In this document: positions 2,205-64,000 of the stretch, piece by piece
Numbering within the stretch: the first letter of the stretch is position 1
Layout of the letters: each line of letters begins with the position of its first letter
Assembly (NCBI RefSeq): GCF_000300335.1
Contig: NZ_AMRM01000007.1
Location: 1-64,000, forward strand
Origin: Nitratireductor pacificus pht-3B
Lineage (GTDB): Bacteria; Pseudomonadota; Alphaproteobacteria; Rhizobiales; Rhizobiaceae
Length of the DNA: 64,000 bases
Direction: 5' to 3'
Program-made: the position numbers and the translations under genes
The notes under the pieces: model-generated
The model's database searches: none
Told to the model about the DNA's origin: nothing
What the model saw: only the letters and a program-made list of their open reading frames with translations

Positions 2205-3089
2205 TCAAGCCTCCCGCTTCTTCAGGCGCGGATCGAGCAGGTCGCGCGCCGTGTCGCCGAGCAGGTTGATCGACAGGATGCACAGCGACAGCATCAGGCC
2301 CGGCCAGAAGATGAGCGACGGCTTCAACTGGAAATAGACCCGGCCCTCGGCCATGATGTTGCCCCAGGTGGGGATCTCGGTGGAGACGCCGGCGCCGAGG
2401 AAGGACAGGATCGCCTCCGTCAGGATCGCCGAGGCGCAGATATAGGTGCCCTGCACGATGAGCGGGGCGAGCGTGTTCGGCATCAGGTGCTGCCACAGGA
2501 TCTTCGGCATGGAGGAGCCGAGCGCCAGCGCCGCCTCCACATAGGGTTCCTCGCGCGCCGACAGGACCACCGAGCGGACGAGCCGCACCACACGCGGGAT
2601 CTCGGGGATGGTGATCGCCCCCATCACCGACCAGATGCTCGGCCCGTTGAGCGCCACCAGTGCGATGGCGAGCAGGATCGACGGGATTGCCATCAAACTG
2701 TCCATGACGCGCATGATGATGGCATCCGCCAGCCGGAAGAAGCCGGAGACGAGGCCGATCATGAGGCCGATCGCCACGCTGATCACGGCCGCCCCGATGC
2801 CGATCAGCAGCGAGACGCGGCCGCCCGTGACGACGCGCGAGAGCATGTCGCGGCCATAGGCGTCGGTGCCCAGCGGGTAGACGTCGCTCGGCCCCTTGAG
2901 GCGCTGCAGCGCGTCCATCGCCATCGGGTCATGCGGGACGATCAGCGGGGCGGCGAGCGTCGCGGCGACGATGACGACGAGCACGGCGGCGGCGATGAGC
3001 GGCCCGGCGCCGACGCGCCAGCCGCGCGGCAGGGCGATGGCGCCGAACAGCCATTGCAGGCGGGCTGCGGGTTGCGGACTGGCGGCCAT
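2205..3089 (-). CDS. Peptide-type ABC transporter permease (DppC/OppC family)
   Basis: Inner-membrane permease of 294 residues with the usual DppC layout: a short cytoplasmic N-terminus, a first membrane helix at about residues 27-50, a periplasmic segment with the family motif HPLGTDAYGRDMLSR (here YPLGTDAYGRDMLSRV), then five further helices. The EAA-type cytoplasmic loop VEAALALGSSMPKILWQHLMPN contacts the ATPase. The ATG at 3089 overlaps the stop codon of the upstream DppB-type permease, so the two are translationally coupled. Together with that permease it forms the translocation channel of the peptide-type importer. Confidence 0.93.
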   Translation of the reverse strand: MAASPQPAARLQWLFGAIALPRGWRVGAGPLIAAAVLVVIVAATLAAPLIVPHDPMAMDALQRLKGPSDVYPLGTDAYGRDMLSRVVTGGRVSLLIGIGAAVISVAIGLMIGLVSGFFRLADAIIMRVMDSLMAIPSILLAIALVALNGPSIWSVMGAITIPEIPRVVRLVRSVVLSAREEPYVEAALALGSSMPKILWQHLMPNTLAPLIVQGTYICASAILTEAILSFLGAGVSTEIPTWGNIMAEGRVYFQLKPSLIFWPGLMLSLCILSINLLGDTARDLLDPRLKKREA

Positions 3090-4030
3090 CAGTAGCGGAT
3101 CCTCGGGTCGAAGAAGGTGTAGGAGAGGTCGATGACGAGATTGATGAACACGTAGAGCCCGCTCGTCAGCAGGATCATGCCCTGGATCACGGGATAGTCG
3201 CGCGCCAGGATGGCGTCGACGGTGAGCCGGCCGATGCCGGGAATGTTGAACACGCTCTCCGTCACCACGACGCCGCCGATCAGCAGCGCGAAACCGGTGC
3301 CGATGATGGTCATGATCGGCACGGCCGCGTTGCGCAGCGCGTGGCGGAACAGGACGACCGTCTCCTTCACGCCCTTGGCGCGGGCGGTGCGGATATAGTC
3401 CTCGCCGAGCACCTCGAGCATGGAGGCGCGCGTCATGCGGGCGATCAGCGCCACATAGATGGTGGCAAGTGTCAGGCAGGGCAGGATGGCGCGCGCCAGG
3501 AATTTGCCAAAACCCTCGGAGGGCGCGGCGTAGCCCTGCACGGGAAACCAGCGCAGCTCGATGGCGAAGGCCTGGATGAACAGATAGCCGATGACGAAGA
3601 CGGGTATGGAGAAGCCCAGAACCGAAAAGGCCATCACGGCGTAGTCGACCCAGGTGCGGTGCCGCCAGGCGGCAAGCACGCCCATGGGCACGGCGATCAG
3701 CACCGACAGGACGATGGTCAGGACGGCGATGTTGAAGGTCGGCCAGATGCGCTGGCCGATCATCTGCGTCACAGGCGTGTTGGAGATGAGCGACGTGCCG
3801 AGCTCGCCCTTCAGGAGCAAGCCGACCCAGGTGACGAACTGCACATGCAGCGGGTCGGACAGGCCGAGCGAGGTGCGGATGCGCTCAAGCTGCGCCGGCG
3901 TCGCCATGTCGCCCGCGATGATCGCCGCCGGATCGCCCGGCGTCAGCCTGAGCAGCAGGAAGACGAAGATGGCGACGATGGTCATGACCGGTATGACCGC
4001 CAGGATGCGCCGGATGATGTAGCCTAGCAT
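3089..4030 (-). CDS. Peptide-type ABC transporter permease (DppB/OppB family)
   Basis: This permease has 313 residues from MLGYIIRRILAVIPVM, a typical DppB start with the first membrane helix at residues 9-31. The periplasmic stretch after helix 1 contains LRLTPGDPAAIIAG, a DppB hallmark, and the coupling loop contains VLGEDYIRTARAKG. An in-frame extension to 4108 would start inside a palindromic repeat, so I chose ATG 4030. The stop overlaps the start of the next permease. It pairs with the DppC-type subunit to form the channel. Confidence 0.92.
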   Translation of the reverse strand: MLGYIIRRILAVIPVMTIVAIFVFLLLRLTPGDPAAIIAGDMATPAQLERIRTSLGLSDPLHVQFVTWVGLLLKGELGTSLISNTPVTQMIGQRIWPTFNIAVLTIVLSVLIAVPMGVLAAWRHRTWVDYAVMAFSVLGFSIPVFVIGYLFIQAFAIELRWFPVQGYAAPSEGFGKFLARAILPCLTLATIYVALIARMTRASMLEVLGEDYIRTARAKGVKETVVLFRHALRNAAVPIMTIIGTGFALLIGGVVVTESVFNIPGIGRLTVDAILARDYPVIQGMILLTSGLYVFINLVIDLSYTFFDPRIRY

Positions 4031-53616: not shown

Positions 53617-54444
53617 ATGACACGCCTTCCCGCCACCGCCCGTGTCACCCGCACCGCCCGCCGCACCGGCGGGACGGCGGTTGCCGCGCGCGCGGTGCCG
53701 GAAGAGATGCCCATCGCGCTGTCCTATGGCGGCACGACCCATGCGGTGATGATGGCGACGCCGGCAGATCTCGAGGATTTCGCCCTGGGTTTCAGCATCA
53801 CGGAAGGCATCGTCGCGACGGCCGAGGAGATCGAGAGCATCGAGGTTCAGGAACTCGGCGCCGGGATCGACCTGCAGATCCGCCTGCGCGACAAGGCAAA
53901 CAAGCGCTTCGAGGCGCGCCGGCGCCGGCTTGCCGGCCCGGTCGGCTGTGGCCTGTGCGGCATCGAGAGCATCGACGAGGCGATGCGTGCGGTGCCGGCG
54001 GTTGGCGACGACGGTTTCATCCTTTCGTCGGGCGATATCACCCGCGCTGTCACGCAGCTCTCGACCCACCAGAAGCTGCACAATGAGACCGGCGCGGTGC
54101 ATGCGGCGGGTTTTTATGTTGCCGGCAAAGGAATTGTCGCGGCGCGCGAGGATGTGGGGCGCCACAACGCGCTCGACAAGCTCGCCGGCGCGCTCGCCCG
54201 GGCCGGTGTCGACGGGGCGTCGGGCGCGGTGGTCGTCACCTCGCGCGTCTCCGTCGAGATGGTACAGAAGGCGGCGTCGATGGGCGCGCCGCTGATCGCC
54301 GCCGTCTCAGCGCCCACCGCGCTGGCGATCCGCACCGCCGAAGCGGCCGGCATGACGCTCGTCGCACTGGTGCGCGGCGAGGAGTTCGACATTTTCACCC
54401 ATCCCGAACGCGTGACGATTGGAGCGGCCAGACATGTCGCATGA
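53617..54444 (+). CDS. fdhD: FdhD, formate dehydrogenase accessory sulfurtransferase (FdsC-type)
   Basis: FdhD/FdsC passes sulfur to the molybdenum cofactor and helps insert it into FdsA. The 275-residue protein has the CxxC motif in GCGLCGIESIDEA, the DVGRHNALDKLAG block and the GDHHV-like EMVQKAASMGAPLIAAVSAPT region. ATG 53617 follows a family A repeat by 25 bp; the ribosome site is weak. Its last 11 nt overlap fdsD. Confidence 0.93.
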   Translation: MTRLPATARVTRTARRTGGTAVAARAVPEEMPIALSYGGTTHAVMMATPADLEDFALGFSITEGIVATAEEIESIEVQELGAGIDLQIRLRDKANKRFEARRRRLAGPVGCGLCGIESIDEAMRAVPAVGDDGFILSSGDITRAVTQLSTHQKLHNETGAVHAAGFYVAGKGIVAAREDVGRHNALDKLAGALARAGVDGASGAVVVTSRVSVEMVQKAASMGAPLIAAVSAPTALAIRTAEAAGMTLVALVRGEEFDIFTHPERVTIGAARHVA

Positions 54445-54679
54445 CAAGAAGTTCAACACCGGCGAGGAGCATCTGATCTACATGGCGAACCAGATCGCCA
54501 CGTTCTTCACATCACAGCCGGGCAACCATGCGGCGAAGGGCGTGGCCGACCACATCAACAGCTTCTGGGAGCCGCGCATGCGCCGCCACCTGTTCGAGAT
54601 CATCGAGCGTGGCGGACAGGGGCTGTCACCGCTCGTTCTGGAAGCCGCCGAAAGCATCCGCCGACCGAAAGCCGCCTGA
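54434..54679 (+). CDS. fdsD: FdsD, formate dehydrogenase delta subunit
   Basis: FdsD is a small protein needed for maturation of the FdsABG complex. The 81-residue product has the family features EEHLIYMANQIATFFTSQPG and HINSFWEPRMRRHLFEII. ATG 54434 has GGAG 9 nt upstream and lies inside the fdhD 3' end. It is the last gene of the operon, convergent with the EF-Ts/DUF4180 fusion gene 16 bp away. Confidence 0.92.
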   Translation: MSHDKKFNTGEEHLIYMANQIATFFTSQPGNHAAKGVADHINSFWEPRMRRHLFEIIERGGQGLSPLVLEAAESIRRPKAA

Positions 54680-54694
54680 GGGCCGGGCCGGCCT

Positions 54695-55984
54695 TCAACC
54701 GGATCGCGCTCGGATATTTAGCCGGCGCATAAGACTGTCGAAATCGGGGACGAACCAGACGTGTTCGCCGCGATTTGCTTCATGGATGAAATCCCGCAAT
54801 GCCGCGCTCTCGGCAACCTCCACCGAAACGTCGCCGACGATGGCGAGGCGTGCGCCCAGATTCGAGAACTTCTGAAGGATGGTTCCGGCTTTCCGGGTGC
54901 TGAGGGGGAAGAAGTCGCCCGGCAATCGCCCGGTCGGCAGGGCGATGAACGTTATCCCCAGCGACCAGGCGGCATTGATGAGGTCGACCGCGTCGCGGTC
55001 ATCCCGAAGCTTCGGGCCGTTCGGCGAGACCTCGAAGATCCGGACTTCGCCGACCTCCCGAATGTGAGCCGGTGCTTCGCTCGACCAGTCGTTTCCGAAT
55101 GTCCATTCGAACGCGGCCGCCTGTGCGACGCGCGCGTCATGGGCGGCGTCCTCCCCGACGCGAAAGCAGACGAAACCATCAACGCGTGCCTGATCGCCGG
55201 CAGCGTCCGCCAGCGCCTCAGCGACCGTGACACCGGGATCGAACAGGAAGGGTTGGTGCAGAAGCACCGTCATTCCATAGAACCTGTCGAGACGGCTCTG
55301 GATGACACGGTGGCTCTCGTTTGCGTCGCCGGAGCCGTCGCCGCTTCCGGTGTGCTTCAATTCCCTGACCGACGCGGGCACGTCATCCGGAGACGTCCAC
55401 AACGGGGCCGCGCCGACCACATGCATTGCCAGTCTTCGGGCGATCTCGACCGATGCTCCTCCGCCGGAGACCGAGACAAGGGCAGCCATGCGACCGACAT
55501 CGGGCGTCGGGCCGTTGTGCGCATAGGCGCCAAGGCAGCCTTCCGGTGTGTCGATCCCGGCTGTCCGATGCAGAGTGACGGCTTCCCCGAACCGTGCCGA
55601 CAGATGGTGGAGATAGCCTGCAACCGTGTCACGCCCGTCCGGCGACGGCGCGTCCAGCGTGCGCGCGAGATCGCCGCCGGCCTCGAGGGCGATGCGCGCC
55701 AGATCCCCCGCTGCCGTCTGGAACTGCGCGTTGCGGCTGACGAAGTCCGTTTCGGCGCGCAACTCGATCAGCGCGCCGCGCCGCTCCCGCACGACGCAGG
55801 CGACGACGCCCTCGGGCGTTGGCCGGCGATGGACCCGCGTGGCCGCACGCATCGTCGCGCGCAGGCTTTCGGCTGCGCGGTCGAGGTTCCCTTCGGCCGC
55901 AATCAGAGCGCGCTTGCAATCCATCACCCCGGCTGCCGTGCGCTCGCGCAGGGCCTTGATGAGCTGGATGTCCGGTTTCGGCAT
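54695..55984 (-). CDS. EF-Ts-like protein fused to DUF4180
   Basis: Residues 1-285 follow the whole elongation factor Ts fold: UBA-like N-terminus IKALRERTAAGVMDCKRALI, the EF-Tu-contact motif ETDFVSRN (residues 78-85), SVSGGGASVEIARRLAMHVVGA and LLHQPFLFDPGVTVAEALAD. Residues 312-423 match DUF4180 (ILQKFSNLGARLAIVGDVS, LRDFIHEANRGEHVWFVPD). True EF-Ts is only about 300 residues and has no such domain, so this is a fused paralogue, not the housekeeping tsf. ATG 55984 has GGAG 7 nt upstream. It is downstream of the ECF41 sigma gene, same strand, after a RIME1-like element. Function unknown. Confidence 0.88.
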   Translation of the reverse strand: MPKPDIQLIKALRERTAAGVMDCKRALIAAEGNLDRAAESLRATMRAATRVHRRPTPEGVVACVVRERRGALIELRAETDFVSRNAQFQTAAGDLARIALEAGGDLARTLDAPSPDGRDTVAGYLHHLSARFGEAVTLHRTAGIDTPEGCLGAYAHNGPTPDVGRMAALVSVSGGGASVEIARRLAMHVVGAAPLWTSPDDVPASVRELKHTGSGDGSGDANESHRVIQSRLDRFYGMTVLLHQPFLFDPGVTVAEALADAAGDQARVDGFVCFRVGEDAAHDARVAQAAAFEWTFGNDWSSEAPAHIREVGEVRIFEVSPNGPKLRDDRDAVDLINAAWSLGITFIALPTGRLPGDFFPLSTRKAGTILQKFSNLGARLAIVGDVSVEVAESAALRDFIHEANRGEHVWFVPDFDSLMRRLNIRARSG

Positions 55985-56017
55985 TGCAGTGCTCCGCTGT
56001 CATGCAGCCTTTTCACG

Positions 56018-56121
56018 AGATCGCCCTGCGTCCATTCGGACGCACAAGGGACGATCCAGGTCATTCATCGCGCATCGAAACAGGCCGGAAACCGGATTCC
56101 ACCTTTCGGTCCGATGCTCTG
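56018..56121. repeat. RIME1-like element, copy 1 (ends inside the sigma gene)
   Basis: About 104 bp similar to 62183-62291: GATCGCCCTGCGTCCATTCG (hairpin GCGTCCATTCGGACGC) followed by an imperfect GCATCGAAACAGGCCGG/CTTTCGGTCCGATGC dyad. The pattern (GCGTCC-N-GGACGC, then a GCATCGG... palindrome) resembles rhizobial RIME1 elements. Its right half (56061-56121) encodes the last 19 residues of the sigma factor. Confidence 0.75.
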
Positions 56122-56975
56122 AGATGATGCAGTTTCTCCGGATTGCGTGTCACATAGACTGCTGCGATCCTCCCCTTATCCACCAGAAAGGCGGAGGTTT
56201 GTGCGATGCCCCCGGCCTCGATCGTGACGAAGCCGGGCAGGCCGTCGATGGCGGCATAGCGGACGAAGCGCGAGGGCGATCGCGCAAAGTAGCGGGCCAG
56301 CCCCCGGAACAGTTTCAGGGCGGCGTCGATCCCGGTCGATGGTGATGTGGGCGCGGCAACCCGGCCGCCGCCATCCGTGTAGATCACGACATCCTTCGTG
56401 AGCAGCCCGCGCAGGGCCTGCATGTCGCCGGTCCGTGAGGCCGTGTAGAAAGCGGCGGCAAGCGCCAGCCCTTCCTCCTTCGTGGCGTTGAAGCGGGGGC
56501 GGGCCTGATGGATGTGGAGCCGCGCCCTGCTGGCGAGCTTGCGGCATGCGGCGGCGTCACGGCCGAGCGTTCCGGAAATCTCCTCGAAGCCGACCCCGAA
56601 CACATCATGCAGCAGGAAGGCCGCCCGCTCGAGCGGGGACAGCCTTTCGAGCGCCATCATCAGCGGCAGCGTGATGTCCTCCAAGACATCCTCTTCGTCT
56701 TCCGGGTCGAAGAATGGCTCGGGCAACCAGGGGCCGATATAGGTCTCGCGCCGGCGGCGGGCGGATTTCAGCTCGTTGACGCAGAGCCGGGTGACGATCG
56801 TCTGCAGAAAGGCCGCCGGCTCGCGGACATTGCGGCGATCATGGTTCAGCCAGCGCAGCCAGGCATCCTGGACGATGTCTTCCGCGTCGGCGACCGAACC
56901 CAGCATGCGGTAGGCGAGCCGGGTCAGCCTTGGCCGAAGACCGGAGAAGATCGCCTCGGTGTCGGTCGCCTGCAT
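56061..56975 (-). CDS. ECF41-type sigma-70 factor with SnoaL-like C-terminal domain
   Basis: A 304-residue sigma factor with an N-terminal region 2 (LTRLAYRMLGSVADAEDIVQDAW) and region 4 (LERLSPLERAAFLLHDVFG, EEISGTLGRDAAACRKL), and a C-terminal SnoaL-like domain that in ECF41 acts as a built-in regulator. All three ECF41 signatures are present: WLPEP (83-87), DGGGR (201-205) and NPEKL (278-282). The last 19 residues lie in the RIME1-like element. ATG 56975 is 6 bp after the flavodoxin stop, so the pair is co-transcribed. Confidence 0.92.
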   Translation of the reverse strand: MQATDTEAIFSGLRPRLTRLAYRMLGSVADAEDIVQDAWLRWLNHDRRNVREPAAFLQTIVTRLCVNELKSARRRRETYIGPWLPEPFFDPEDEEDVLEDITLPLMMALERLSPLERAAFLLHDVFGVGFEEISGTLGRDAAACRKLASRARLHIHQARPRFNATKEEGLALAAAFYTASRTGDMQALRGLLTKDVVIYTDGGGRVAAPTSPSTGIDAALKLFRGLARYFARSPSRFVRYAAIDGLPGFVTIEAGGIAQTSAFLVDKGRIAAVYVTRNPEKLHHLRASDRKVESGFRPVSMRDE

Positions 56976-56981
56976 CGCCGC

Positions 56982-57647
56982 CTATCCTGCCAGTGCGGCC
57001 ATCGCGGGTTCGCGCCCGAGCGTGAACTGCAGGGCGACGGTCGCCACGCGCCGGCCCAGGTGCCGCGCGGTTGCGAGGTCCGCCTCGGGCGGTGCCAGGT
57101 CCGGCCCCTGGTCGACATTCGACTGCGCCGCTGCGCCGAGCCAGAATCCGAGCCTGTTCAGATCTTCCTCCGAACCCGTCGAGGAACAGTTTGCCGGCGG
57201 CAGGTCGAGGCTCACCCAGTGCATGCCGTGCTGCGCCGCGAACAGCGCCATCTGCAGGAGCGTCGACAGCTTGTCGCCCGACCGAGAGCCGGAATTGGTG
57301 AAGCCCGCTGCGATCTTGTCCTTCCACAGATAGCCTCTGGCCATGATGGCACTGGAGCTGGCCTCCTGGAACGCCTTGAACGACGCCGAGCCGGCGCCGA
57401 CATAGGTGGGAGCGCCGAAGATGATCGCCTGAGCGGCGTTCAGCTCCTCCCAGCGCCTCTGCGCCTCATCGGTCGTCAGGAGCAGGGCCTCGGCGCCGCG
57501 CACCTGTTCGACGCCGGCCCGGACCGCCTCCGCCTGCCGGGCGGTATGGCCGTAGCCCGAATGATGGACGATGGCGATGCGGGCGGCGGGCGGCCTTGCC
57601 ATCGACCCGATGGAACTGGATTCGCCTGTTGTTTCCCTGCTGTACAT
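56982..57647 (-). CDS. Flavodoxin-like protein (NAD(P)H-quinone oxidoreductase, WrbA-like)
   Basis: A 221-residue protein with the FMN-binding fold: the P-loop-type IAIVHHSGYGHTARQAEAV at residues 29-47, IIFGAPTYVGAGSASFKAF and AAGFTNSGSRSGDKLSTL. WrbA-type proteins reduce quinones with NAD(P)H in the cytosol and counter oxidative stress. I chose ATG 57647 with GAAGGAG 6 nt upstream; the longer frame runs into the tetR gene. It is 6 bp upstream of the ECF41 sigma gene and 77 bp after tetR, on one strand. Confidence 0.88.
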   Translation of the reverse strand: MYSRETTGESSSIGSMARPPAARIAIVHHSGYGHTARQAEAVRAGVEQVRGAEALLLTTDEAQRRWEELNAAQAIIFGAPTYVGAGSASFKAFQEASSSAIMARGYLWKDKIAAGFTNSGSRSGDKLSTLLQMALFAAQHGMHWVSLDLPPANCSSTGSEEDLNRLGFWLGAAAQSNVDQGPDLAPPEADLATARHLGRRVATVALQFTLGREPAMAALAG

Positions 57648-57724
57648 TCTCGGCTCCTTCGCGAACGCTACGAAGGACATGACAGGAGTGCCCGGCGGAT
57701 TGTGACATGCGGCGGTCATGGGCT

Positions 57725-58369
57725 TCAGGCCTCCTCGCGCGGCCATTGTCCTGTGGAGGGGCCCGCTTGAGCGACGGCCGCGGGCCGGTTCCAGATGCCG
57801 GTCGCCGCGGCGTGGGCGGCGTCCAGAACCTCCTGCGCGATCCTGGTTTCCGGAATCGCCCGGGCGAGGATCATCCCGCCGACGCACAGCGCCGTCAGCG
57901 AGAGGGCCTGCGAGCGCCGCGCGGCCGGGTCGCCCTCGAGGTTCATCTCGAACAGCCAGACCATCGCCTCCACGAGGTGCCGGTAGCTGTCGCGGACGCG
58001 CGGGCCGGCATTGGCGACATCGGTCGCGTAGGCGATCAGCGGACACTGCCCGTCGCGGTCCGCCAGATGGCGGCGGGAGAGATAGGCGTCCACCATACGC
58101 TGCGCCATCACGAGCTGGCATGCGGTGGGGTCCACCTTCTCCTCGGCGCGCCATCGGGCGCCGCGGCCCTCGAGGAAGCCGATCATCGCGTCGGCGAAAA
58201 GCTCTTCCTTGCTGGAGAAATGCGCATAGAATCCGCCGCGTGTCAGATTGGCCTCGGCCATGACCTGATCGATGGTGACCCGATCGTAGCCGCGCCGGTT
58301 GAACAGCACGCGCGCCGCCTCGAGAATGCGCTCCCGTGTCTTCGCCTTGTGGTCCTTGGGGTATGGCAT
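57725..58369 (-). CDS. TetR/AcrR family transcriptional regulator
   Basis: A 214-residue TetR-type repressor with the N-terminal HTH at residues 10-57 (KTRERILEAARVLFNRRG, ANLTRGGFYAHFSSKEEL). ATG 58369 has GGAGCC just upstream. A perfect 13-bp inverted repeat lies 33-66 bp upstream, between this gene and the divergent YciI-like gene, and is probably its operator. It is the first gene of the tetR-flavodoxin-sigma-EF-Ts/DUF4180 run. Confidence 0.93.
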   Translation of the reverse strand: MPYPKDHKAKTRERILEAARVLFNRRGYDRVTIDQVMAEANLTRGGFYAHFSSKEELFADAMIGFLEGRGARWRAEEKVDPTACQLVMAQRMVDAYLSRRHLADRDGQCPLIAYATDVANAGPRVRDSYRHLVEAMVWLFEMNLEGDPAARRSQALSLTALCVGGMILARAIPETRIAQEVLDAAHAAATGIWNRPAAVAQAGPSTGQWPREEA

Positions 58370-58401
58370 GGTGGCTCCTCCCGGAGGCGGCACGATAGCA
58401 G

Positions 58402-58435
58402 ACGCCAGAATATGTTCTTGATCATATTCTGGCGT
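58402..58435. promoter_or_regulatory. Perfect 13-bp inverted repeat, probable TetR operator
   Basis: ACGCCAGAATATG (58402-58414) and CATATTCTGGCGT (58423-58435) are exact reverse complements around an 8-bp spacer. It sits in the 104-bp gap between tetR (start 58369) and the divergent YciI-like gene (start 58474), so repressor binding would block both promoters. Confidence 0.8.
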
Positions 58436-58473
58436 GACGCATTCTTTCCCCGTTGCAACCAAGGAGGATTGTC

Positions 58474-58779
58474 GTGCCCAGATTCATTCTCGCATTTCGC
58501 GGCGGCATGCCCAAGAGCCCTGAGGAAGGGCAGAAGATGATGACGGACTGGAATGGCTGGATGGAAGCTCTCGGCTCCAGCCTGGTCGACAAGGGCGCCG
58601 GCTTTGGCAAGTCGCGTTTTCTGTCCAGACCGGGCCGTGAGGAGAAGGCCGGCGATCCGTTGTCGGGATACTCCGTAGTCGAAGCTCCCGACATCGAGGC
58701 GGCGTTAAAGATCGCGGGCAGGAACCCGATCTTCGCTCTCGGCGGCACGATCGAGGTCGCCGAGTGCCTTCAGATGTAG
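58474..58779 (+). CDS. YciI/DGPF domain-containing protein
   Basis: A 101-residue protein starting (GTG) MPRFILAFRGGMPKSPEEGQ, with the ferredoxin-like alpha/beta YCII-type fold and GYSVVEAPDIEAALKIAGRNP. AAGGAGG lies 6 nt upstream of GTG 58474. Such YciI/DGPF proteins are often encoded next to ECF sigma factors. It is divergent from tetR across the 13-bp palindrome and is followed by a terminator-like hairpin shared with metE. Function unknown. Confidence 0.82.
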   Translation: MPRFILAFRGGMPKSPEEGQKMMTDWNGWMEALGSSLVDKGAGFGKSRFLSRPGREEKAGDPLSGYSVVEAPDIEAALKIAGRNPIFALGGTIEVAECLQM

Positions 58780-58802
58780 CAGGGATATCGCTTCCGCTGC
58801 GG

Positions 58803-58837
58803 CGCGAGGGGCAGGGCGGCTGATCCTGTCCCTCGCG
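58803..58837. terminator. Bidirectional terminator-like hairpin
   Basis: CGCGAGGGGCAGG (58803-58815) and CCTGTCCCTCGCG (58825-58837) form a 13-bp stem with one G-U pair. It sits between the convergent YciI-like gene and metE. The T-tract is weak (GTTTCGT on the plus strand), so termination may be partial. Confidence 0.55.
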
Positions 58838-58909
58838 TTTCGTGGGCCTGAGAAACGGCTTGCGACCGGTCCCGGCGTCGCTGTCGCTGGCCGGTTTCGG
58901 TCAGGCCGA

Positions 58910-61261
58910 TCAGTTCATCGCCAGGCGGAGTTGCCGCGCCGCGGCAACCATGTTGACAAGCGCGGGGCGCACCTCCTCCCATTTCCGGGTTTTCAGGCCG
59001 CAGTCGGGATTGACCCAGAGCTGTTCGTCGGCGATCCGCTCCCGTGCGAGAGTGAGCAGGTTCGCCATCTCCACGGCATCCGGCACGCGCGGCGAGTGGA
59101 TGTCGAAGACGCCGGGTCCGATCTCGTTCGGATACCTGAAGGTCCGGAAGGCGTCGAGAAGCTCCATCTTCGAGCGCGAGGTCTCGATCGAGATGACATC
59201 GGCATCCATTGCTGCGATCGCGTCGATGATGTCGTTGAACTCGGAATAGCACATGTGGGTGTGGATCTGCGTCCTGTCCGACACGCCCGACGAGGCAATC
59301 CGGAAGCTCTCGACCGCCCAGTCCAGATAGAGCTTCCAGTCGGCCTTGCGGAGCGGGAGACCCTCGCGCAGCGCCGCCTCGTCGATCTGGATCATCCAGG
59401 CGCCTGCCGCCTCGAGATCCTGCACCTCGTCACGGATCGCAAGAGCGATCTGCCGGCAGGCCAGGTTGCGGGGAACATCGTCGCGCACGAAGGACCAGTT
59501 GAGGATCGTGACCGGCCCGGTGAGCATGCCCTTCATGGGCTTCTCCGTGAGCGACTGGGCGTAACGCCACCACTCCACCGTCATCGGCCGCGGTCGCGAC
59601 ACGTCGCCGAACAGGATCGGTGGCCGAACATAGCGCGAGCCGTAGCTCTGCACCCAGGCGTGCTTGGTGAAGGCGAAGCCCGAGAGCTGTTCTCCAAAAT
59701 ACTGGACCATGTCGTTGCGTTCGAACTCGCCATGCACCAGGACGTCGAGGCCGATCTCCTCCTGCCATCGCACGGCCGTCTCCGTTTCCTTCCGGAGAAA
59801 GGTTTCGTAGTCGGCATCGTTGATGGCGCCCTTTGCATGGGCTGCCCGCGCCTTGCGCACGGTCTCGGTCTGCGGGAACGAGCCGATGGTCGTCGTCGGG
59901 AACGGCGGCAGGTTCGACGCAGCCCGCTGCTGACGTGCGCGCTCCGCGAACCGGGTGGCGCGTTTGGTCAGTTCAGGCGTGATCGAGGCGATGCGCGCGG
60001 CGACGGCGCGATCATGCACCTTCTCCGAGGCCTCGCGCCGGCTGGCGGCAACGGCGGAATCGGCAAGCTCCTGCATCACCGCCTCGCGGCCCTCGACCAG
60101 GGCCTTCCCCAGCACGGTGAGCTCGCCCATCTTCTGGACGGAGAAGGCGAGCCATTCCTTCAGGTCGGGATCGAGGCCCGTTTCCAGGTCGAGGTCGATC
60201 GGGACATGCAGAAGTGAACAGGAGGGGGCGATCTCGACGCGTTCCGGGCCGTGCCGGGCCACAACGGGCTCGAGGCGGTCGAGGAGGCTCGGCAGGTTGG
60301 CGCGCCAGACATTGCGGCCGTCGAGGACGCCGAGTGACAGAACGAGCCCCTGCGGCGCCTTTGCAAGCACGCCGTCAAGCTGTTCGGGCGCGCGCACCAG
60401 GTCCAGGTGCAGGCCGGCGACCGGCAGGCCGAGCGCCGCGTCGAGATTGTCGCCGAGCCCGCCGAAATAGGTTGTCAGCATGATTTTCAATCCCGGCAGC
60501 GCCTCGGCGAAGACGCGATAGGCCTGGCGAAGCGCCTCGTGCGCCGTCGCGTCGAGGTCGAGCACGAGGCAGGGTTCGTCGATCTGCACCCAGTCCGCGC
60601 CGTTCTCGGAAAGGCGCCGGAGCACCTCGACATACACCGGAAGCAGGTCGGCGATGAGCGACAGCGGGTCGAGCGCCGGGTCCGTGCTCTTGCCGAGCTT
60701 CAGATAGGAGACCGGCCCGAGCAGGACCGGGCGCGTCTCGTAGCCGAGGGCCTTGGCCTCGAGATACTCGTCCACCGGTTTGGTCGAAGCCAGCGTGAAC
60801 TTCTGCCCTTTCGTGAACTCGGGCACCATGTAGTGGTAATTGGTGTCGAACCACTTGGTCATTTCGAGAGCCGGAACGCCGCGGGCTTCGCCGTTGTCGC
60901 CGTGTCCACCGTGCGAGCATGCAGTGCCTTGGTCGCCGCCCTGGCTGCCGCGCGCCATCGCGAAATAGATGTCGAGTGGCACGGGGCCGCCCGTCCAGCC
61001 ATAGGCCTCGGGGATGGCACCCACCATCACGCTCGTGTCGAGCACATGGTCGTAGAGCGAGAAGTCGTTCGACGGGATGTTGGTCACGCCAAGCGCTTTC
61101 TGGCGCGCCCAATGTGCAACGCGCAGGCCGGCCGCTGCCTCAAGAAGGGCGGCGGCGTCGGATTTGCCGGACCAGTAGGATTCGAGGGCGAATTTTAGCT
61201 CGCGGCGCGGGCCCATCCGCGGCACGCCGAGAGTACTGACAGGAAGCGATAGTAGAGACAT
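58910..61261 (-). CDS. metE: MetE, cobalamin-independent methionine synthase
   Basis: MetE transfers the methyl group of 5-methyltetrahydropteroyltri-L-glutamate to homocysteine. The 783-residue protein has [20 protein letters not shown] at the N-terminus and [13 protein letters not shown] in the middle. The zinc ligands His669, Cys671 ([10 protein letters not shown]), Glu693 and Cys754 ([15 protein letters not shown]) are all present with the same spacing as E. coli His641/Cys643/Glu665/Cys726. I chose ATG 61261; the open frame to 61345 lies in the leader. It is under a cobalamin riboswitch, so it should be off when B12 is plentiful. Confidence 0.95.
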
Positions 61262-61371
61262 CGGCTCAACCCCATGATGTTGGGGGCAAAGGCCGAGCGG
61301 ACGCGTGCATGCGCCGGCAGATGAGCCGGTGGAACGCGCGACCACCGGGACACCCCGCCCGAGGACGTTTC

Positions 61372-61562
61372 ATGCTGTCACGGCAGGTCTCCTGGCTCGC
61401 GGGTCACGGCCTTCATCCCGCCTTCCCGAAGCCGGATGGCTTCAGTGGCACAATCGGATGGAGGCTCGCCGCCTACAGTTGCGGGGGCAGCTCCGGCCTT
61501 GCCCTGGGGCGCACCGGATTCCCTCTTAGCTCTGGCCAGAAACTGGCGCAGAGAACCACGAC
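61372..61562 (-). ncRNA. Cobalamin riboswitch controlling metE
   Basis: On the minus strand the element contains GGGAATCCGGTGCG, the CCCCGCAACTGTAGGCGG core, GCCACTGAAGCC and the B12 box AGCCAGGAGACCTGCC. It ends about 110 nt before the metE ATG. The leader after it holds CCCC...GGGG stretches around 61266-61290 that could sequester the GGGG ribosome site. The gap 61262-61693 holds only this leader and its promoter. Confidence 0.95.
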
Positions 61563-61568
61563 GGCACA

Positions 61569-61596
61569 ATAATGACCAATATCGCGGCGATGTCAA
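61569..61596 (-). promoter_or_regulatory. metE promoter
   Basis: Minus strand reads TTGACA (61591-61596), a 16-nt spacer, then CATTAT (61569-61574), placing the start at about 61562, the 5' end of the riboswitch. Confidence 0.65.
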
Positions 61597-61693
61597 TATT
61601 TACATAAAGACATGTTTATATCTTTCTGTCATCCGGCCACGAATTTTGGGAGATGCCATCTGCGGCACGAAGGACGGAACGTTCTGTTACGCC

Positions 61694-62161
61694 TCAGCCA
61701 TCGCCCTTCTCCGAAGGCGGCAGGCGCTTCACGACGGTATCTTCCGGTTCCAGCAGCCGCCCGTCCTGCGAACGCAGTTCGAGTCGGCGAACCGGCAGGC
61801 CCGTTCCGCGGTCGAGCAGGGTCACATGGCTCTCGTCCGGCTGGAAGAAGTGATCTTCCCCCCACTGCCGCAGCGCCACCAGCAAGGGGAACAGCCCGCG
61901 GCCCTTACCGGTCAGCACATATTCCTGATAGGCGCTGCCGTCCGAGGCCGGAACCGTATCCAGAATCCCGTGGCTGACGAGATTCTTCAGCCGCGCCGAA
62001 AGGATGTTCTTGGCGAGGCCCAGGCTTTTCTGAAACTCGCCGAACCGGCGCAGCCCGTCGAACGCATCGCGGACGATCAGCAGGGACCACCAGTCCCCGA
62101 TCGCATCCAGAGGCCGCGCCACCGGGCAATCCGCGTCCCTGTGACTGGTTCGTTTGACCAT
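61694..62161 (-). CDS. HxlR family transcriptional regulator
   Basis: A 155-residue winged-helix protein with the HxlR features CPVARPLDAIGDWWSLLIVRD, FGEFQKSLGLAKNILSARL and YVLTGKGRGLFPLLVALRQWG. HxlR proteins sense electrophiles or redox state through Cys or quinone-type ligands; here Cys12 is present. It is divergent from the alpha/beta hydrolase across 339 bp that hold a RIME1-like element and a near-perfect 31-bp palindrome. Confidence 0.92.
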   Translation of the reverse strand: MVKRTSHRDADCPVARPLDAIGDWWSLLIVRDAFDGLRRFGEFQKSLGLAKNILSARLKNLVSHGILDTVPASDGSAYQEYVLTGKGRGLFPLLVALRQWGEDHFFQPDESHVTLLDRGTGLPVRRLELRSQDGRLLEPEDTVVKRLPPSEKGDG

Positions 62162-62182
62162 GTTCGTCCGCTCCCTGCCGGC

Positions 62183-62291
62183 TAGATCGCCTTGCGTCCT
62201 GTTGGACGCACGAAGGACGATCTAAATCATCGATGGAGCATCGGAACAGCCGAAAACCGGCCACCACTTTTCGGTCCGATGCTCCAGAGCG
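62183..62291. repeat. RIME1-like element, copy 2
   Basis: Close relative of 56018-56121: GATCGCCTTGCGTCC-TGTT-GGACGC hairpin and the imperfect dyad GCATCGGAACAGCCG/CTTTTCGGTCCGATGC. It lies wholly in the gap between hxlR and the hydrolase gene. The rest of the gap (62292-62500) holds the palindrome at 62346-62376 and then no further signal. Confidence 0.75.
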
Positions 62292-62345
62292 CCGATACGC
62301 TCGAATGTTCGCCATTTTAGGGACCAGCAATATTGGTTGCAACAT

Positions 62346-62376
62346 AAAACCTTATCTGATATCGAGATATGGTTTT
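62346..62376. promoter_or_regulatory. 31-bp palindrome, candidate HxlR operator
   Basis: AAAACCTTATCT and AGATATGGTTTT are reverse complements at 11 of 12 positions around a 7-bp centre. It is 125 bp upstream of the hydrolase ATG and 184 bp from the hxlR start. The AT-rich palindrome and its place between an HxlR gene and a divergent enzyme gene fit an HxlR operator. Confidence 0.65.
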
Positions 62377-62500
62377 AATATGAAACCACATGGCGCCACC
62401 GGCTGGACGGAACGAAGAGCCAGGCGGGCTTCGCCTGACACGCGCGGCTCGGGGTTGCGATCCCGGCGCACCCGCGCACCGGTTCCATGCAGAGGAGACA

Positions 62501-63361
62501 ATGATGACGCACTACCGCACCATCGACATCGACGGGCGCAGGATTTTCTACAGGGAGGCGGGAAGCCGCGATCTGCCGACACTGCTTCTGCTACACGGTT
62601 TCCCGGCATCGTCGTTCATGTTCCGCGACCTGATCTGCCGGCTTTCCGACCGGTTTCACGTTGTCGCGCCTGATTATCCGGGGTTTGGCTACAGCGATGC
62701 GCCTTCGAATGCGGAGTTCACCTACAGCTTCGACCGCCTGGCAGACATCATCGAGCGGTTTGTCGATCAATTGGGGATCGAGAAATACGCCCTCTACATG
62801 CAGGATTTCGGCGGGCCGGTCGGCTTCCGCCTTGCGGTCCGGCGTCCGGAGAAGGTGACCTTCCTCATCGTTCAGAACGCCAATGCCTATGACGAGGGCC
62901 TGCCCGACAGTTTCTGGTCGCCCGTCCGTGCCCTGTGGGACGATCCGTCGCCGGAGAATTTCAGCAGGATCCGCGAGGCGGGAATTTCCGACGAGGCGCT
63001 GGAATGGAACTACACGCACGGCGTGCGGGACGTGACGAAAATCAGCCCGGACAGCTGGGTGCTGCAATCCGCTCTCGTCAACAGGCCTGGCAACAAGGAG
63101 ATCATGCTCGATCTCCTCTACGACTACCGGACGAACCCCGGCCTCTATCCCGAATGGCAGGCCTATTTCCGAAAACATCAGCCGCCGACGCTGATCGTCT
63201 GGGGACAGAACGACGTCATCTTCCCCCCTTCCGGCGCGCACCCCTATCGCCGGGATCTGGAGAAAGTCGATTTCAATCTTCTCGATACGGGTCACTTTGC
63301 CCTCGAGGAGCAGGCTGAGGTGATCGCCGGGCACATCAGGCGGTTCGCCGCGGCGCTCTGA
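62501..63361 (+). CDS. Alpha/beta hydrolase, haloalkane dehalogenase/epoxide hydrolase-like
   Basis: A 286-residue alpha/beta hydrolase. The oxyanion region is HGFPASSF (32-39) and the nucleophile elbow is QDFGGPVG with Asp102 where serine hydrolases have Ser, as in haloalkane dehalogenases and soluble epoxide hydrolases. The acid and base fit GQNDVIF and DTGHFALEE. ATG 62501 has GAGGAG upstream (ATG 62504 is also possible). It is divergent from the HxlR gene and likely induced through it; the substrate is unknown. Confidence 0.88.
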   Translation: MMTHYRTIDIDGRRIFYREAGSRDLPTLLLLHGFPASSFMFRDLICRLSDRFHVVAPDYPGFGYSDAPSNAEFTYSFDRLADIIERFVDQLGIEKYALYMQDFGGPVGFRLAVRRPEKVTFLIVQNANAYDEGLPDSFWSPVRALWDDPSPENFSRIREAGISDEALEWNYTHGVRDVTKISPDSWVLQSALVNRPGNKEIMLDLLYDYRTNPGLYPEWQAYFRKHQPPTLIVWGQNDVIFPPSGAHPYRRDLEKVDFNLLDTGHFALEEQAEVIAGHIRRFAAAL

Positions 63362-63508
63362 CCGCGCGCCCGGGTTTGGCCATCTGCCATCGGTCCGCGC
63401 CCGCTGTCCTGCCGGCGCGGTTCCCCTCTCCGCAAGGGCCGACTGCCTTCTGCGGAGACGACGGCGGGGGAGCTTTGATCCAAACGCAACCTTTTTTCCG
63501 AGGCGAAT

Positions 63509-64000
63509 ATGAGTCTGAACGGCGCGGCGGTTTCTCCGGCACTCTGCAATCAGGCGGAAGCGTCCGATGGATGCGGAAAGCCGCAGGACGAAGAGCATGA
63601 GGCGGGGCGGAACCAAATCCCGACTGCGCAGGCGCGCGGGGGCGTTGCCGCTCAAGCCCTCTCGCGCGGCGTCGCGCTGCTGTTCTCCGTCGCCTGCGGG
63701 CTTGCGGTCGCCAATGTTTATTACGCCCAGCCGCTGCTCGACGTGATCGCCGACACCTTCGCCATGAACCGCGCCTCCATCGGCATCGTCATCACCGTCA
63801 CGCAGATCGGCTATGGCCTGGGCCTGCTGCTGGTGGTGCCGCTTGGCGACCTGCTGGATCGCCGCCGGCTGGTGCTCGGACAGTCGCTCCTGTCGGTGCT
63901 TGCGCTGCTTGTCGTGGCACTCGCGCCGAACGGCACCGTTCTGCTGGGCGCCATGTGGGCAGTCGGCGTTCTGGCCGTGGTGACGCAGGTGCTGGTCGCC
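63509..64000 (+). CDS. MFS transporter (partial, N-terminal part)
   Basis: The first 164 residues of a major-facilitator transporter; the gene runs off the right edge. A 50-residue polar N-terminus precedes helix 1 (ALLFSVACGLAVANVYYAQPLL), followed by ITVTQIGYGLGLLLVVPLGD and the A-motif loop GDLLDRRRLVLG. The NVYYAQPLLD motif is typical of the YnfM/drug-efflux-like branch. GAGG lies 5 nt before ATG 63509. It follows the hydrolase gene by 147 bp on the same strand. Confidence 0.85.
   Translation, partial: MSLNGAAVSPALCNQAEASDGCGKPQDEEHEAGRNQIPTAQARGGVAAQALSRGVALLFSVACGLAVANVYYAQPLLDVIADTFAMNRASIGIVITVTQIGYGLGLLLVVPLGDLLDRRRLVLGQSLLSVLALLVVALAPNGTVLLGAMWAVGVLAVVTQVLVA

Follow-up and report, generated by a model that had tools for sequence, protein, structure and literature searches.

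Why would a bacterium carry a second gene for elongation factor Ts (EF-Ts), usually regarded as a single-copy housekeeping exchange factor encoded beside rpsB, and why would that gene be joined to a domain of the DUF4180 family? The question is raised by an EF-Ts::DUF4180 fusion gene in a 64,000-nucleotide stretch (here called the window) of contig NZ_AMRM01000007.1 of Nitratireductor pacificus pht-3B. The original prediction, made from the letters of the window, saw a complete EF-Ts paralogue fused to DUF4180 and, from an ECF41 sigma factor gene next to it, a stress-conditional translation factor. The data presented here confirm that the fusion is real and is the second EF-Ts of its genome. 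They also place two near-identical relatives in mobile DNA, and we tentatively favor a reading, which we give slightly less than an even chance, in which the EF-Ts part is an EF-Tu docking module with reduced recycling that would place DUF4180 on the translation machinery.

A second EF-Ts joined to DUF4180

The two domains lie in one frame. Pfam EF_TS (PF00889) matches residues 70 to 278 of the fusion (E 2.3e-33; 116 bits against a cut-off of 27), DUF4180 (PF13788) matches residues 313 to 422 (109.8 bits against a cut-off of 25; profile positions 3 to 112 of 112), and TIGR00116 (tsf) matches residues 5 to 279 at 140.7 bits, above its equivalog cut-off of 104.05. The earlier placement of DUF4180 at residues 312 to 423 is thus borne out. 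The accompanying claim of a whole EF-Ts layout stands in part: both EF-Ts profiles are passed and the ETDFV motif is in place at residues 78 to 82, but the coiled-coil tip is changed and the C-terminal helix has given way to a linker. The N-terminal UBA/TS-N profile, the third named for the check in the original prediction, stays below its cut-off (13.2 against 22.4 bits) in a region that still aligns with canonical EF-Ts. A plus-strand open reading frame (ORF; 54761-56122) overlapping the fusion gene has no Pfam match at E 0.01.

The N. pacificus genome (4.47 Mb in 51 contigs) has EF_TS in two places, the fusion and a canonical tsf on contig 6, the latter in the order rpsB-tsf-pyrH-frr-uppS (Pfam S2, EF_TS, AA_kinase, RRF, Prenyltransf), and a single DUF4180 match. 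Because this separate rpsB-tsf locus exists, the fusion, which lies outside it, is a second EF-Ts, as had been proposed. A scan of 84,980 species (one genome each) found 6 relatives among 37 candidate stretches; 3 of the 6 are full-length fusions, in Phyllobacterium salinisoli (locus L011; 60% identity to the window copy), Nitratireductor soli (L012; 56%), and Niveispirillum sp. (L013; 55%). The scan finds near relatives only, because exact short peptides were needed. All three hosts also carry canonical tsf (3/3; with the window genome, 4/4). A sequencing join is excluded because these other species carry the same full-length fusion; the gene has its DUF4180 domain, is not the sole EF-Ts of the genome, and is not an artifact of assembly.

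Mobile DNA, distribution and the DUF4180 module

The operon at L011, L012, and L013 runs from a 140-aa excisionase-type helix-turn-helix (HTH) protein through a 288-aa alpha/beta hydrolase to the fusion in third place, with gaps of 10 to 18 nt ahead of the fusion (the L011 genes were named by Pfam and NCBIfam). PHROGs matches are to excisionase families for the HTH protein and to an esterase family for the hydrolase. L012 (Phyllobacteriaceae) and L013 (Azospirillaceae) have 9.3 kb in common, with the operon block, at 92.7% identity, followed by an integrase stretch. Pfam identifies VirB8- and CagX-type conjugation genes, AlpA, and a tyrosine integrase at L012, with guaA beyond the integrase, and L013 has the same gene set by nucleotide match and translation. 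Identity between the two is 68 to 86% inside guaA and 80 to 100% just outside it. Integrase, conjugation genes, and host junction are found at one locus, the integrase end being the end of the element looked at, and the two near-identical fusion copies sit in an integrative element beside guaA. Horizontal transfer is indicated because canonical EF-Ts joins the window genome with Nitratireductor, whereas the fusions join Nitratireductor with Niveispirillum. Together, the HTH-hydrolase operon and the mobile element, neither of which the original prediction mentioned, point to accessory cargo. The integrase end itself spans 9319-12475 in L012 and 9319-11073 in L013; an additional 1.4 kb in L012 contains a TetR-type gene.

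The fusion is rare, with no further full-length copy in samples of genomes drawn at four taxonomic levels (the samples overlap, and their counts include the window's own genome). DUF4180 occurs in 5/151 genomes of the family sample, the long frame in the window's genome only, and in 2/385 genomes of the class sample, where the one besides the window's is stand-alone. In the order sample, 2/397 genomes match at E 1e-48 or better, the match besides the window's ending at residue 281; in the phylum sample, 8/398 genomes match the fusion profile at E 1e-60, the other seven ending at model position 286 to 297 of 439 (in both samples, among the matches listed, at most 4 candidates were scored per genome). 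Among plasmids, 75 records match the fusion, none covering 80% of the query, and a nucleotide search of plasmids gave no match. PADLOC has no match for the fusion, the HTH protein, the hydrolase, or DUF4180, and membership of an anti-phage defense family was dropped on that result. A phage origin was dropped as well, PHROGs having no match for the fusion or for stand-alone DUF4180 and viral contigs no relative. In the searched literature, neither an EF-Ts::DUF4180 fusion, nor a second tsf copy with horizontal transfer, nor EF-Ts as integrative-element cargo was found described. A Rhodococcus opacus plasmid typed as mobilizable (L061) carries a tsf gene at 2477-3304, near a helicase gene and with no rpsB among the genes listed for the 5.8 kb shown; the PLSDB gene table is incomplete, and this is perhaps another mobile EF-Ts.

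Stand-alone DUF4180 genes offer a view of what may have preceded the fusion. A Klebsiella plasmid (L027) encodes an HTH protein, an alpha/beta hydrolase, and a stand-alone DUF4180 in the order seen at L011 to L013 and with related partners, from which it follows that EF-Ts was probably joined to an existing module. The economical reading of these gene orders is that EF-Ts probably came to stand in front of a DUF4180 with an existing role in an operon; the older unit would have been an operon of excisionase-type HTH regulator, alpha/beta hydrolase, and DUF4180. In Nonomuraea a related hydrolase precedes a stand-alone DUF4180, and in Enterococcus a gene annotated as a hydrolase does, without a match to the hydrolase used as reference. 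A short-chain dehydrogenase lies ahead of DUF4180 in Streptomyces clavuligerus and Paenibacillus, and an ArsR regulator in Paracoccus. Neighbors of these kinds (hydrolases, short-chain dehydrogenases) suggest that DUF4180 is linked to small-molecule handling. Neither the DUF4180 tree nor the hydrolase tree settled which stand-alone relatives are nearest.

With one exception, the other DUF4180 genes looked at are stand-alone, of about 115 to 145 aa by frame or annotation. The exception is on a Klebsiella plasmid (L022, 3110-4342), where hydrolase and DUF4180 form a single ORF that may be frame disturbed. In Micromonospora sicca (L015, 7527-8351) an HTH relative lies directly ahead of DUF4180, with no hydrolase match, and related HTH-hydrolase pairs without DUF4180 after them are present on Bosea, Microvirga, and Klebsiella plasmids (L047, L048, L049). 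Twelve columns are identical in all 15 aligned DUF4180 sequences, the window's included. A STAS-like domain, suspected from the sequence pattern, was rejected after hhalign against DUF4325 gave a probability of 0.5% (of 25 listed matches, 11 were chosen, and 10 sequences were used, L095 having no ORF). One mention of DUF4180 was found in the searched literature (PMC10920822): it calls DUF4180 an undescribed domain and reports five genes, one of them encoding the Burkholderia DUF4180 protein LAG22, whose mutation compromised virulence on rice.

Proposed docking on EF-Tu and its alternatives

For four fusions (window, L011, L012, and L013), the EF-Ts part was compared, in E. coli mature EF-Ts numbering, with 59 columns that 14 or more of 15 canonical EF-Ts sequences share. 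R12, T79, D80, F81, G126, E127, Y145, and H147, among others, are unchanged in all four. The coil tip (E193, G205-K206-P207, K213, and G217) is altered in every fusion, K213 being R in the window, as is K50, and in the alignment the usual C-terminal helix DFAAEVA is absent, with a strongly conserved linker in its place. Residues of E. coli EF-Ts reported to contact EF-Tu are K51, G54, D80, F81, I125, and G126, of which only D80 is given as conserved in M. tuberculosis in the portion available of that source; the M. tuberculosis contacts are R13, K24, D77, N82, and H149 (PMC9529903). The latter were mapped onto the fusions through an identically numbered Rhodococcus sequence; G54 did not fit the numbering used.

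Conservation is uneven along the gene. Between the window and L011/L012, identity is 83 to 90% in the linker (the highest of five parts compared), 66 to 69% in DUF4180, and 46 to 58% in the EF-Ts parts. In a comparison of L012 with L013, the ratio of nonsynonymous to synonymous change (dN/dS) comes to 0.156 over the fusion, with EF-Ts at 0.224 and linker plus DUF4180 at 0.101; these are small-number values that rest on 27 synonymous and 13 nonsynonymous changes in all. A decaying or chance join of two genes, with no function, would fit the rarity of the fusion and the lack of further full-length copies in the genome samples. This explanation, already disfavored, is barely credible given three other intact copies at 55 to 60% identity, the low dN/dS, and the conserved linker and DUF4180.

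The four fusions group together as a single clade in the EF-Ts trees, with support of 100/100 (rows L016, a short form, L056, and L060 were not included), and three of the four do so in the DUF4180 tree (100/97). The stem branch of the fusion clade measures 1.84 changes per column, and the EF-Ts part is placed among alphaproteobacterial sequences other than the hosts' own. Origin from the host's own tsf lineage was disfavored, at a borderline level that does not firmly exclude it, by an approximately unbiased (AU) test (P = 0.038) in which the fusions were joined to five of the six canonical rows that represent the window's order, a group named after the first tree had been seen; the value is to be read with the long branch, with the flagged letter make-up of three fusion rows, and with the fact that the nearest canonical rows were fetched for scoring well against the fusion.

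Observed, then, are the domain pair, one fusion clade, the operon in three species, two element copies, low dN/dS, and retention of core contacts. From these we propose that an alphaproteobacterial EF-Ts was turned into the N-terminal docking module of a horizontally moved, accessory DUF4180 protein. The EF-Ts part would bind EF-Tu near the nucleotide site, where R12, T79-D80-F81, G126, and H147 are kept in all four fusions, and DUF4180 would thereby be held on EF-Tu or tied to translation. Loss of the coil tip and C-terminal helix would weaken general EF-Tu recycling, which would stay with canonical tsf. Among the features in favor of docking are the single fusion clade, the low dN/dS, stand-alone DUF4180 in the corresponding operon slot on the Klebsiella plasmid, and the canonical tsf present in each of the four hosts; in addition, linker and DUF4180 are more conserved than the EF-Ts parts, and contact residues are kept while the coil tip is not. 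We are more doubtful of the fuller version, in which a mobile cluster has its own EF-Tu-binding module, an EF-Ts without the parts that full recycling requires, which would deliver DUF4180 to host EF-Tu and give a handle on elongation.

Several observations weigh against docking. Of the 59 strongly conserved EF-Ts columns, the window copy retains no more than 35, and 25 are retained across all four fusions; I125 is F in every one, K51 survives only in L011, and K23 has become R in the two integrative-element copies (L012 and L013) but is unchanged in the other two. In the window, tblastn found no relative of the HTH protein or the hydrolase. The best hydrolase match in the whole genome has an E value of 1e-7, and the HTH protein was sought in the window only; since the partner genes are missing there, the window copy would act without them or have another role. 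Four stand-alone DUF4180 loci of the window's family likewise have neither partner nearby, and when solved structures were searched with a profile built from 15 DUF4180 sequences, no convincing relative emerged (best E 0.87).

The main rival, which we regard as somewhat unlikely, is a genuine second EF-Ts that recycles EF-Tu under some condition, with DUF4180 as a ligand-sensing switch of exchange. Passing the TIGR00116 equivalog cut-off (140.7 against 104.05 bits) and the unchanged T79-D80-F81, G126, and H147 in 4/4 fusions argue for it, but no other part of the fusion is as poorly conserved as EF-Ts, whose coil tip and C-terminal helix are lost and whose stem branch is very long. Such losses (24/59 conserved columns in the window copy; among the fusions, K50 and the coil tip changed in 4/4 and K51 in 3/4) and the long branch could also mean that the EF-Ts fold has stopped engaging EF-Tu and was repurposed for another partner, e.g., the hydrolase or DUF4180 itself. 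We consider this distinctly unlikely: the losses spare the loop that contacts EF-Tu domain I, and the TDF, GE, and Y..H motifs are kept in all four.

Improbable, too, and to a greater degree, is an EF-Tu trap or decoy, which would hold EF-Tu and slow translation or starve borrowers of EF-Tu/EF-Ts (RNA-phage replicase, EF-Tu-dependent toxins). Kept core contacts with a changed coil tip and two copies inside an integrative element would suit such a device, and deletion of the EF-Ts coiled coil reportedly gives resistance to Q-beta, going by the title of Karring et al. The fusion, however, lacks a PADLOC match, no defense neighbors were recognized, and its operon partner is a metabolic-type hydrolase.

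With docking still the reading we favor, the presence of close relatives on mobile DNA suggests that an accessory cluster of genes has gained a grip on the apparatus of protein synthesis. A second, fast-evolving EF-Ts in near-identical mobile DNA of two families would show mobile DNA recruiting a core translation factor, which, if this is true, would serve as a docking or control part. EF-Tu being an abundant core host protein, docking would give mobile DNA a direct handle on translation elongation, and the fusion would provide a lead for the function of DUF4180.

The sigma factor neighbor and known systems

The ECF41 gene does lie upstream of the fusion on the same strand, separated by a 76-nt gap in which no terminator-like site was found, and conditional expression of the fusion by read-through from it is possible. 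The stress role once drawn from this arrangement is nevertheless weak because the sigma factor has a flavodoxin-like (FMN_red) partner of its own, a dispersed repeat stands between its gene and the fusion, and the association is not conserved: at L011 to L013 no relative of the sigma factor was found, the hydrolase being the gene directly upstream. The usual partners of ECF41 are carboxymuconolactone decarboxylases, oxidoreductases (FMN_red included), and epimerases (COE), its promoter is TGTCACA-n16, and in the published cases, as far as the available part of the source goes, the only detectable target is the COE gene, plus the sigma gene if cotranscribed (PMC3426412). An ECF41-like site stands ahead of the flavodoxin-sigma pair; it is the one match in the window against 0.09 expected, 9 of 100 shuffles also reach one, and the pattern had been loosened from CGTC (no match in the window) to TGTC after the sequence had been read. 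Ahead of the fusion neither the strict nor the loosened pattern finds a site. A sigma-70-like site just upstream of it (56153-56124; 9/12, chance mean 0.4) counts against ECF41 read-through as the only source of transcript. Strand, gap, and the site ahead of the pair are in keeping with a stress-conditional translation factor in an ECF41 regulon; with the intervening repeat, the missing site, the absence of the sigma factor at the other three loci, and the narrow published target range (PMC3426412), we judge it very unlikely. Overall, a second EF-Ts with DUF4180 and preserved core EF-Tu contact residues is what survives of the earlier interpretation, and the ECF41 stress role is its weak part.

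In the window's genome at least 46 matches to the repeat were counted, a figure that includes the repeat itself and partial copies and comes from scoring 40 of 81 candidates; two same-genus genomes also have many. Roughly the final 19 codons of the sigma ORF lie within the repeat, and contig 3 has tandem partial copies at 205056-205394. The repeat resembles Rhizobium intergenic mosaic elements (RIME-like). A hairpin in the sigma-fusion gap (folding z-score of -1.58; 13/200 shuffles as good) was not used. On the other side of the fusion, DNA matches with the two same-genus genomes, except for those to the repeat, go no further than fdsD, and 54680-64000 is a variable region relative to both; a single-gene insertion between fdsD and the repeat was dropped, both matches stopping altogether at fdsD. 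Coordinates are given in Table 1.

Table 1. Positions of the fusion gene, its parts, and neighboring features in the window
Feature	Position	Strand	Basis or remark
EF-Ts::DUF4180 fusion gene	54695..55984	-	Single uninterrupted ORF, 429 aa, in Nitratireductor pacificus pht-3B
EF-Ts module, residues 1-283	55136..55984	-	TIGR00116 5-279, PF00889 70-278, alignment with canonical EF-Ts
ETDFV, residues 78-82, EF-Tu domain I contact motif	55739..55753	-	Translation
Changed coiled-coil tip, residues 209-230	55295..55360	-	Canonical E193, GKP 205-207, K213, and G217 lost
Conserved linker, residues 277-306, begins GEDAAHDARVAQAAAFEWTFGNDWS	55067..55156	-	Replaces usual C-terminal helix
DUF4180 domain, residues 313-422	54719..55048	-	PF13788 E 8.7e-32
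ECF41/SigJ-type sigma factor gene	56061..56975	-	NF007214 367.6 bits against cut-off of 271; WLPEP motif; neighbor, not judged part of module
FMN_red/flavodoxin-like gene, likely ECF41 operon partner	56982..57602	-	PF03358 E 5.6e-08; start codon assigned in this analysis
ECF41-like site TGTCACA-N16-TGTC ahead of flavodoxin-sigma pair	57681..57707	-	Pattern match
Dispersed ~105-bp repeat between sigma gene and fusion	56015..56122	Not assigned	Genome matches
fdhD and fdsD, convergent neighbors, last genes matched in same-genus genomes	53617..54679	+	Pfam

Among known systems, the fusion resembles elongation factor Ts (TIGR00116/PF00889) in passing both cut-offs and in keeping core residues and the TDF motif. 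It differs from it in lying outside rpsB-tsf, in having linker and DUF4180 for a C-terminal helix, in its changed coil tip and long branch, and in being found, in two hosts (L012 and L013), in mobile DNA. It shares with DUF4180 (PF13788) a full-length match above the cut-off, whereas the other DUF4180 genes looked at stand alone or, in one Klebsiella record, form one ORF with a hydrolase. The Klebsiella plasmid trio (L027) has the gene order of L011 to L013 and related partners, but its third gene has no EF-Ts, and the window lacks both partner genes. EF-Ts domains built into a different architecture are also described for rice chloroplast OsAL7, which has two of them and, unlike the fusion, is a plant plastid protein with no mention of DUF4180 (PMC12156993, as far as the available part of that source goes).
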